DNA of 64,000 nt from Azospira sp. I13 (GTDB lineage Bacteria; Pseudomonadota; Gammaproteobacteria; Burkholderiales; Rhodocyclaceae). A program made the translations under genes and the position numbers. Below, piece after piece: positions 5,843-62,719 of this stretch (position 1 is the stretch's first letter; every line of letters begins with the position of its first letter). Below the pieces are notes generated by a model. It worked only from the letters and a program-made list of their open reading frames with translations, ran no database searches and was not told the DNA's origin. The stretch covers positions 77,401 to 141,400 of the forward strand of contig NZ_BFBP01000011.1 in assembly GCF_003112695.1 (NCBI RefSeq), in the 5' to 3' direction.

Positions 5843-5875
5843 AGGCCGTGCAGCAATTGCTGCACGGCCTTTTCC
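5843..5875 (+). terminator. Terminator after the chemoreceptor gene
   Basis: A 28-bp perfect palindrome, AGGCCGTGCAGC AATT GCTGCACGGCCT, is followed by TTTTCCTTT and preceded by seven A. It can end transcription in both directions between convergent genes. Confidence 0.88.
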
Positions 5876-59738: not shown

Positions 59739-60695
59739 TCAACGATAGTCGATCACCGACCCATCGGCGCGGCGCAGTACGATCTGGTCGCTGCGCTGGA
59801 TGCCCGCCACGGCCCGGCGGCAGAGTTCGAGGAAATGCTGGATGCCCCGGGTGCGGAATTTCTGGCGGTGGATGATGAAGTGGAACTGGCGCCGCAGATT
59901 GAGCCCGGGGGAAGGCAGTTCCACCAGGCTGCCGCGGCGGAAGGCTTCCTTGAGGGCTAGGCGGGAAATGCAGCCGATGCCCAGGCCGGCTTCCACGGCA
60001 CGCTTGATGGCCTCCGTGTGCTCCAGTTCCAGGGCGACCCGCAGCCGGGGCAGGCGGGGACCGAGGGCGGATTCCAGGGTCTGGCGGGTGCCGGAGCCGG
60101 GTTCCCGCAGAATCCAGGGTTCCGCCAGGAGGTCGTCGAGGGTGGCGTCCTGCTTGCCGGCCAGGGCATGGTCCGGGCCGGCGAAGACCGCCAGTTCGTC
60201 TTCGATCCAGGGGCTGGCTTCCAGGTCCGGGTGCTGGCAAACCCCTTCGATGAGGCCGAAATCCAGTTCGAAATTGGCCACCTGGCGGATCACCGTGGCG
60301 GTGTTATGCACCTCCAGATGCACCTGGCCCCGATAGGCCTCGGGCCGGCCACCCATGAATTCCCCCAGCAACAGGGGCGCCAGGTAGTTGCCGATGGTCA
60401 GGGTGGCGCCCAGGCGCAGGGGGCCGCCCTCCCCCTCGCCTTGCAGCAGGCCCTCGATGTCCCGCCCCTGGTCCAGCAGGGCCTGGGCCCGGGGCAGCAC
60501 CTGGCGCCCCAGTTCGTTGAGCTGCAGGCGCTTGCCGTGGCGGTCGAAGAGTCGGGTGTCGAACTGCCGCTCCAGTTCGTTGAGGCTCATGCTGACCGCC
60601 GATTGGGAGAGGGAAAGGCTCTCCGCCGCCTGGGAAACGCTTTCCTGGCGGGCCACGGCAACAAAGGATTCCAGCTGGCGCAAGGTGAATTTCAT
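59739..60695 (-). CDS. LysR-family regulator divergent from fpr (FinR-like)
   Basis: 318 residues. The helix-turn-helix is LESFVAVARQESVSQAAESLSLSQSAVSMSLNELERQF. The effector domain has LRLGATLTIGNYLAPLLLGEF and EPWILREPGSGTRQTLE, typical of the CysB/CbbR-like group. In Pseudomonas the LysR protein FinR is divergent from fpr and controls it; the layout is the same here. A 38-bp interval contains a perfect 10-bp inverted repeat that both genes share. Confidence 0.88.
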   Translation of the reverse strand: MKFTLRQLESFVAVARQESVSQAAESLSLSQSAVSMSLNELERQFDTRLFDRHGKRLQLNELGRQVLPRAQALLDQGRDIEGLLQGEGEGGPLRLGATLTIGNYLAPLLLGEFMGGRPEAYRGQVHLEVHNTATVIRQVANFELDFGLIEGVCQHPDLEASPWIEDELAVFAGPDHALAGKQDATLDDLLAEPWILREPGSGTRQTLESALGPRLPRLRVALELEHTEAIKRAVEAGLGIGCISRLALKEAFRRGSLVELPSPGLNLRRQFHFIIHRQKFRTRGIQHFLELCRRAVAGIQRSDQIVLRRADGSVIDYR

Positions 60696-60855: not shown

Positions 60856-61632
60856 ATGTCCGGATTCATCCACGAAGAAGTCACCAGCGTCCATCATTGG
60901 AACGACAGCCTGTTCAGCTTCAAGACCACCCGTGACCCGGGCCTGCGCTTTCGCACCGGCCAGTTCGTGATGATCGGCCTGGAAGTGGAAGGCCGGCCCC
61001 TGATGCGTGCCTACAGCATCGCCAGCGCCCACTACGAAGAACACCTGGAGTTCTTCAGCATCAAGGTGCAGAACGGCCCCCTCACCTCCCGGCTCCAGCA
61101 CTTGCAGCCCGGTGACAAGATGCTGGTCAGCCGCAAGCCCACCGGCACCCTGGTGCTGGACGACCTGAAGCCCGGCAAGCACCTCTATCTGCTGGGCACC
61201 GGCACCGGCCTGGCCCCTTTCCTTTCCGTCATTCGCGACCCGGAAGCCTACGAGCGCTTCGACAAGATCGTGCTGATCCACGGCGTGCGCACCGTCAGCG
61301 AGCTGGCCTACTCCAACTTCATCGAGAACGAGCTGCCCAATAACGAGTTCTTCGGCGATCTGGTGCGGGAAAAGCTGATCTACTACCCCACCGTCACCCG
61401 CGAACCCTTCCGCAACCAGGGCCGCCTCACCGACCTGCTGGAAGGCGGCCAGCTGTGCGCCCAGATCGGCCTGCCCCAGATCAACCCGGAAACCGACCGG
61501 GCCATGCTCTGCGGCAGCCCGGCCATGCTGGAAGACACCAGCGCCATGCTGGATCGCCTCGGCTTCCACGTTTCCCCCCACATCGGCACCCCTGGCGACT
61601 ACGTCATCGAACGGGCTTTCGTGGAAAAATAA
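60856..61632 (+). CDS. fpr: Ferredoxin/flavodoxin--NADP(+) reductase
   Basis: 258 residues, the size of bacterial Fpr. FAD is bound through RAYSIASA, and NADP(H) through LLGTGTGLAPFLSVI and IHGVRTVSELAYSNF. The C-terminus reads MLCGSPAMLEDTSAMLDRLGF...GDYVIERAFVEK. It moves electrons between NADPH and ferredoxin or flavodoxin and is often part of the oxidative-stress response. ATG 60856 follows GCCCACC rather than a strong ribosome site. Confidence 0.94.
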   Translation: MSGFIHEEVTSVHHWNDSLFSFKTTRDPGLRFRTGQFVMIGLEVEGRPLMRAYSIASAHYEEHLEFFSIKVQNGPLTSRLQHLQPGDKMLVSRKPTGTLVLDDLKPGKHLYLLGTGTGLAPFLSVIRDPEAYERFDKIVLIHGVRTVSELAYSNFIENELPNNEFFGDLVREKLIYYPTVTREPFRNQGRLTDLLEGGQLCAQIGLPQINPETDRAMLCGSPAMLEDTSAMLDRLGFHVSPHIGTPGDYVIERAFVEK

Positions 61633-61654
61633 GGCGCCTCGACGTGCCAAGGAA

Positions 61655-61679
61655 ACCGGGCCTGGTGCCCGGTTTTTTA
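61655..61679 (+). terminator. Terminator of fpr
   Basis: ACCGGGC-CTGGT-GCCCGGT stem-loop followed by TTTTTT. It lies 22 nt past the fpr stop codon. Confidence 0.9.
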
Positions 61680-61830
61680 TTGCCGGATACAGTCGCAACG
61701 TACCTCCGGTTTTCTGGCGCCTGGTTTGGTTTTCCCGGGTCTTCCCTGGCTTTCTCCGCCCCTCTTCTGCACCACTCTCGCACCACGCCGCCCGGCGGTG
61801 ACATGACGCCATGGCCGGCGCTTTCCATGT

Positions 61831-61870
61831 GCGGTACTAAAACTTGATTCAAATCAAGTTTTAGTACCGC
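61831..61870. promoter_or_regulatory. FNR-type box inside a 40-bp perfect palindrome
   Basis: The arms GCGGTACTAAAACTTGATT (61831-61849) and AATCAAGTTTTAGTACCGC (61852-61870) pair base for base around a CA centre. The middle 14 bp, TTGATTCAAATCAA, is an exact FNR/Anr site (TTGAT-N4-ATCAA). It is centred 143 bp before the Crp/Fnr regulator gene. A GATTAA at 61881 is at about the -10 position for an FNR-activated (class II) start near 61892. Confidence 0.85.
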
Positions 61871-61993
61871 TAACTGACTGGATTAAAAAGGAAAAAATAG
61901 AACACCCCCAGCCACCTCCGGGCGCCCTGCGGCGGCAGGCAGCATCCGACCCTTGTTGCATAAAAACTACAGCAGCATCAATGGGGGTAGAGG

Positions 61994-62719
61994 ATGGAAA
62001 TCACGGACGGGGAATGCATTGGCTTGCCAACGCTTATGGAGGTCCTGCTGGCAGCACTGAAGGACCCGCAAATCGCTCACCGGGTCAGCAGCGAACGCTG
62101 GGCGCCGGGGACCCACTGGCAATCCTGCCACAATGGCAAACAGAGTATTTTCGTCGTTCGGCATGGTCGCCTGGAACTGGCGGTGATGGATGCGGAGGGC
62201 CGGGAAAGGTCCCTGCGGGTGCTGGCCGAATCGGAACTGTTCGGCACCGAGGCCCTGTCGGCGCTCTCCGCGCCGTCCGGTACCGCCGGTGAGGCGCCCC
62301 GGCAGGATTACGGCATTCGCGCCGTCACCTATTCCGAGGTGCTGCAGATTCCCCTCGACGTGGTCGATCAGCTGATCATCCGTCTGCCCCTCTTCCGCAA
62401 GGCCCTGACCAACAGCATCGCCAACCACATCTGGGCCCTGGAACGGGAACGGGAACACGGCCGTTCCATGCCCACAAACAACCGCCTGCTGTGCTACCTG
62501 CGCTGCGGCGAGAACGGCCACCAGCCCCAGCAGAAGCCTCTCGGCAAGGCCACCCTGCCCATGCAGCTGCTGGCTCGGCGCATCGGTTGCAGCGCCGGCC
62601 ACCTCTCCCGCTCGGTCAGCACCATGGTGAGGGAAGGCGTTCTGCTGCGCCAGGATGGGCGCCTGCAGCTGAAGGGCGATGGGGAAATGCGCTACGCCTT
62701 CTGCGAAGGCTGCGCCTAG
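61994..62719 (+). CDS. Crp/Fnr-family transcriptional regulator
   Basis: 241 residues. An N-terminal cyclic-nucleotide-binding-like barrel (TLMEVLLAALKDPQIA, FVVRHGRLELAVMDAEGRERSLRVLAESELFGTEALSA) is followed by a dimer helix and a winged helix-turn-helix, LPMQLLARRIGCSAGHLSRSVSTMVREGVLLR. The recognition helix has GHLSR where FNR has ETISR, so the Glu that reads TTGAT is missing. Cysteines occur near the start (GECIG), in QSCHNG, LLCYLRCGENG and at the C-terminus FCEGCA, which could suit redox or metal sensing. It has a long leader of about 100 nt after the presumed start. Confidence 0.88.
   Translation: MEITDGECIGLPTLMEVLLAALKDPQIAHRVSSERWAPGTHWQSCHNGKQSIFVVRHGRLELAVMDAEGRERSLRVLAESELFGTEALSALSAPSGTAGEAPRQDYGIRAVTYSEVLQIPLDVVDQLIIRLPLFRKALTNSIANHIWALEREREHGRSMPTNNRLLCYLRCGENGHQPQQKPLGKATLPMQLLARRIGCSAGHLSRSVSTMVREGVLLRQDGRLQLKGDGEMRYAFCEGCA

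Follow-up and report, generated by a model that had tools for sequence, protein, structure and literature searches.

Organization of the regulator locus

The DNA analysed, referred to throughout as the window, is a single stretch of 64,000 nucleotides. Within it, a gene for a Crp/Fnr-type regulator (positions 61994-62719, + strand) lies downstream of a ferredoxin-NADP reductase-like gene (fpr, 60856-61632, + strand). The best model for the latter, NF008178, matches below its cut-off. The regulator is 241 amino acids long, with a cNMP-binding domain, the recognition helix SAGHLSR and a C-terminal CEGC. Between the genes is a 40 bp inverted repeat (61831-61870) that carries an FNR-type box. Note that fpr and the regulator gene are on the same strand and that no gene begins at the other side of the box. 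Separating fpr from the box is a further inverted repeat followed by a T run (61653-61680, + strand). This is kept in the sister species, G002, and, from its sequence, is a probable intrinsic terminator of fpr; the terminator scan did not list it. An Rfam match to SorX (61606-61680), spanning the 3' end of fpr and the terminator-like repeat, scored 21 bits against a gathering threshold of 46.6 and was taken as chance. Divergent from fpr is a LysR-type regulator gene (59739-60695), which is over the NF008095 cut-off. It is also related to the YeiE model, scoring below the cut-off in that case. Elsewhere in the source genome, a second fpr-like frame (L094, G000:C3:241569-242315) has one TGA inside the match, reflecting either a broken gene, a frame edge or a sequencing error.

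An exact FNR-type box is embedded in a perfect palindrome

The 40 bp repeat, GCGGTACTAAAACTTGATTCAAATCAAGTTTTAGTACCGC, consists of two 19 bp arms around a central CA. The arms are 100% complementary and 38 of the 40 bases are paired. An exact FNR-type box, TTGATTCAAATCAA, forms the 14 bp core in the middle of the palindrome (61844-61857), and symmetry continues past this core for 13 bp per side. These were the main claims of an earlier note on this DNA and both were reproduced in full. The span given in that note ended at 61892, which is 22 bases beyond the palindrome, and the additional stretch is presumed promoter DNA. We distinguish the inner 22 bp (AAACTTGATTCAAATCAAGTTT, 61840-61861) from the left and right outer arms (GCGGTACTA, 61831-61839, and TAGTACCGC, 61862-61870). 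None of these elements is assigned to a strand.

With spacers of up to 6 bases allowed, no other perfect inverted repeat in the window is as long, and the runners-up have arms of 14 and 13. The second-longest palindrome, by arm length, is the perfect 28 bp sequence AGGCCGTGCAGCAATTGCTGCACGGCCT at 5843-5870. In 20 simulated 64 kb windows, with the same dinucleotide frequencies and spacer limit, the longest arms were 8 to 11, compared to 19 in the real sequence. Similarly, all nine outer pairs matched in only 0.011% of 100,000 arm shuffles. Long perfect repeats are also found in 546 kb of other loci (a set that counts overlapping and viral loci) and one of these has 19 bp arms. Twelve of the 20 longest repeats listed for those loci end in at least three T and are terminator-like. 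Hence, length alone does not make the palindrome unique.

The picture differs if the box is considered together with its arms. We compared 37 distinct TTGAT-N4-ATCAA sites for which flanking DNA was available: 22 exact boxes from three genomes of the genus, one AACTTGATNNNNATCAAGTT site from the wider family, and 14 new sites. The new sites were drawn from 25, using a pattern that required one extra flanking pair and so favours longer extension. Symmetry beyond the core was 13 bp at the site described here and 5 bp at the next best. Two sites extend 4 bp, one being the G002 ortholog, and the others 3 bp or less. Hence, of the 37 boxes, only this one is flanked by arms of such length. In other respects the site resembles any FNR-type box (TTGATNNNNATCAA): it has the exact consensus, a cognate FNR is encoded, it is upstream of a gene, and it is kept in a congener. 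What differs is perfect symmetry for 13 bp past the core, against 5 bp or less at the 36 sites compared. It is difficult to dismiss the nine additional matched pairs as having no meaning.

The FNR-sized core is conserved but the outer arms are not

The gene order fpr, box, regulator and glyA is common to the source genome and G002. In an alignment of the intergenic DNA, the core AAACTTGATTCA(A/C)ATCAAGTTT is present in both species, with 21 of 22 bases identical. Hence, the putative FNR operator is also present at the orthologous place. Conversely, each outer arm is identical at just 3 of 9 positions. Of the nine outer pairs in G002, four are symmetric, a value reached by 18% of shuffles and no more than expected by chance. 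The third congener genome has no match to the regulator and the comparison therefore covers two species only; between these, the regulators are 84% identical. In the aligned sequences, conservation is visible on the FNR-sized core and not on the outer arms. The outer symmetry is most likely lineage-specific and would not be needed for FNR binding. In the wider family, AACTTGATNNNNATCAAGTT is present in 3 of 395 genomes. Two of the occurrences are the present site and its ortholog in G002, and the third is in G277, where symmetry extends 3 bp beyond the core.

At class II promoters, FNR binds a site near position -41.5, and the -10 element is found at about the spacing seen here for the sequence TGGATT (61879-61884, + strand). 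This candidate weak -10 element matches TATAAT at 3 of 6 positions and is part of ACTGGATT, which is kept downstream of the box in both species with no change in length. In each, TGGATT begins 21 bases past the box. Five bases beyond TGGATT, the source genome has TAAAAA, matching TATAAT at 4 of 6 positions, and this is not kept in G002. A general promoter scan identified no promoter at the site.

FNR and related boxes elsewhere in the genome

The source genome encodes FNR (L128), which scores 253.7 bits against the NF008365 cut-off of 228. The protein has the cluster motif CxxCx5C (CSNCNLQELC), a further cysteine, and the recognition helix LETVSR. Hence, both the cluster cysteines and an E..SR helix are in place. 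Other CRP/FNR proteins in the genome, L134 and L140 for example, also have E..SR helices and, judging by these, could bind the box too. FNR is thus the likeliest binder and not the sole candidate. Furthermore, in PMC1274295 the DNR of Pseudomonas is described as binding a sequence that resembles the FNR box, and orthologs of DNR are named in beta-proteobacteria. None of the proteins was assigned as a DNR ortholog in our analysis, and the site alone therefore does not separate FNR from a DNR-like binder.

Exact TTGAT-N4-ATCAA sequences number 11 in the source genome, 5 in G001 and 6 in G002; the corresponding counts for a reversed control pattern are 0, 1 and 0. Within the genus, some boxes precede genes of anaerobic type: the distance is approximately 95 bp for a cytochrome cd1 frame, 75 bp for a di-haem cytochrome c peroxidase, and 150 bp for a 4Fe-4S protein, which we take to be CcoG. 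One G001 box is separated by about 550 bp from a frame of the COX1 oxidase family. Further boxes have a Rieske ring-hydroxylating oxygenase-like frame or a chemotaxis frame nearby. Besides the box described here, the source genome has 10 exact boxes, and five of these are flagged as inside predicted frames (one such frame is doubtful). Hence, since boxes occur within frames, or beside oxygenase-like or chemotaxis genes, an exact match is no proof of use. Both species also have an exact FNR box about 1.7 kb before another paralog of the regulator (G000:C22:25405 and G002:C2:452135, at L066 and L071). A neighbouring 4Fe-4S gene may be the target instead.

The downstream regulator has an unusual recognition helix

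The earlier note had placed the box upstream of a Crp/Fnr regulator with an odd recognition helix. The cNMP-binding domain agrees with this assignment, and the placement is kept in G002. The helix, SAGHLSR, aligns where FNR has KLETVSR, and is the same in the G002 protein. Here, glycine replaces the specificity glutamate found at position E181 of CRP, equivalent to E209 in FNR numbering, and this bears out the description of the helix as odd. The serine and arginine of the helix are kept.

Close orthologs of the regulator were found in only two genomes, both of one genus. A search of PDB sequences gave no match at an E value of 0.001. An AlphaFold model, built from the single sequence, had a mean pLDDT of 37 and was left out of the analysis. 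Members of this Crp/Fnr group (61994-62719, L005-L008, L021-L023, L025 and L077-L087) share a CYxxC motif and a cysteine-bearing C-terminus. The latter reads CPxGC in most, CEGC in the regulator and L021, and CPC in L022 and L023. From these motifs, the group may be one that senses thiols or metals. The G002 paralog L021 has a different perfect palindrome of 20 bp, AACGTGACGTACGTCACGTT, approximately 90 bp before its start (L021:1328-1347). The related gene in the source genome, L020, has TATCGGCGTTGCCGATA upstream instead.

Could the regulator bind the inner TTGAT box and so control its own gene? The box is directly upstream of that gene in both species and, as noted, two helix residues are retained. 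The identity of the residue at the E181 position argues otherwise. PMC1274295 reports a correlation between position 181 of CRP and base A6 of the site, with motifs that shift when the residue is replaced. Hence, with glycine rather than glutamate in SAGHLSR, we do not expect the regulator itself to recognize TTGAT and, on the strength of the helix, it probably does not. A survey of homologues points the same way. For 20 of 24 loci, we searched the 350 bases preceding the open frame together with its first 150 bases; L020, L004 and L024 (wrong frame), and L003 (the stretch missed the box), were excluded. The box was near the start of one of the 20, the window regulator itself (L002). Thus, TTGA-N6-TCAA is absent near the starts of the 19 others, and it is also absent throughout the 3.6 kb paralog loci L020-L025. 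We consider simple autoregulation of this kind distinctly unlikely.

Alternative roles for the palindrome

A different possibility, raised by the earlier note, is that the site is a composite operator. FNR would bind the inner sequence, and another dimer, which might be the encoded regulator controlling its own gene, would occupy the outer arms, GCGGTACT and AGTACCGC. The perfect 9 bp outer symmetry, so rarely reproduced by shuffling, is consistent with this. Similarly, a recognition helix unlike that of FNR would require another sequence, and the distinct palindrome upstream of L021 fits with self-regulation through gene-specific palindromes. However, the arms are not conserved in G002, even though the regulator there is 84% identical and has the same helix. 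Furthermore, the half site, GGTACTAAAACTTGA, has 17 other matches in the genome, all with 3 mismatches, whereas the reversed control pattern has 74. The half site thus recurs nowhere else above background. The proposal of a second operator does not withstand these two observations well, and we regard it as unlikely.

The palindrome might instead act as a switch, with supercoiling extruding two hairpins, destroying the FNR site and gating the promoter. In the source genome, the calculated hairpin has an 18 bp stem, a 4-base loop and an energy of -18.5 kcal/mol as single-stranded DNA, and none of 200 shuffles was as good. In G002 the stem is only 9 bp and the energy is -6.9 kcal/mol; both energies are single-strand values only. 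The strength of the structure is not conserved and we rejected the idea of a conserved long hairpin. In E. coli, promoter regions are reported to be enriched in inverted repeats that could form cruciforms (PMC6060812). Our site resembles these, since it is a long and nearly perfect inverted repeat close to a presumed promoter. It differs in that a protein-binding consensus explains the conserved part. On these calculations, a cruciform is physically possible at the source-genome site, but a regulatory switch of this type seems very doubtful. No conserved feature favours a second binder or a cruciform, and both have low probability.

Finally, the sequence is intergenic and could form a long hairpin, as would a mobile or repeated element, or a terminator. 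The earlier note had suggested a count of further copies. Allowing up to 3 mismatches, the inner 30 bp is found once in the 3.79 Mb genome. Hence, the palindrome is not a repeat element, or a member of a repeat family, in the source genome. Many copies would have counted against the reading given in the note, which thus passes one of the two refutation tests set there. With 60 bp around the palindrome as the query, there were no phage matches, and nine plasmid records matched weakly and in part, each over less than 80% of the query. A plasmid search with the 1 kb region gave no match. Eight stretches of viral contigs contain the exact 16-mer half site (two are identical in the part printed) and none of the eight extends into the palindrome. 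A scan of contigs from other genomes gave only a partial match, in Yersinia similis, and none of the papers available for a text search contained a run of 23 letters taken from the site. We rejected a repeat or mobile element, given the single copy, the lack of phage matches and the weak, partial plasmid matches. An intrinsic terminator was also rejected. Such a terminator would have a GC-rich stem and then a T run. There is no T run past the stem, where TAACTGACTGG comes next, and the palindrome is absent from the terminator scan list. Besides, a separate terminator-like repeat is already located 3' of fpr. Together, we find the mobile element and terminator readings scarcely credible.

FNR as the predicted activator of the regulator gene

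We favour a model in which FNR activates the regulator gene from an operator formed by the inner 22-24 bp, and the outer symmetry is a lineage-specific feature without a conserved role. From the sequence comparisons, we put the probability of this at about 0.62. Without oxygen, the canonical FNR of the genome would bind TTGATTCAAATCAA, the centre of which is approximately 41.5 bp upstream of a predicted transcription start near 61892. FNR would then be a class II activator of the Crp/Fnr-type regulator gene, and the regulator would form a second tier of anaerobic control.

The outer 9 bp on each side would be a lineage-specific extension of the repeat, possibly made by template switching. PMC8604942 describes homogenization of inverted-repeat arms by this process. 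Template switching should keep one ancestor-like arm and, since both arms are identical to G002 at just 3 of 9 positions, there is no direct support for it here; such an origin is possible. Otherwise, the site looks ordinary. Its long mirror arms, and hence the outer symmetry, are the one unexplained local feature.

We also considered a two-state promoter, in which the FNR operator is nested within a palindrome, new in one species, that can form a cruciform or be doubly bound. This is a speculative reading that we think improbable. If true, oxygen, via FNR, and supercoiling or a second dimer would compete for the same 40 bp, with the sister species keeping the FNR part only. If, as we favour, FNR controls a regulator with an unusual recognition helix, the organism would have a two-tier anaerobic circuit. 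In addition, the box is common to two species and the long palindrome is in one. This is a small natural experiment, in which any effect of flanking symmetry on activation by FNR is measurable.
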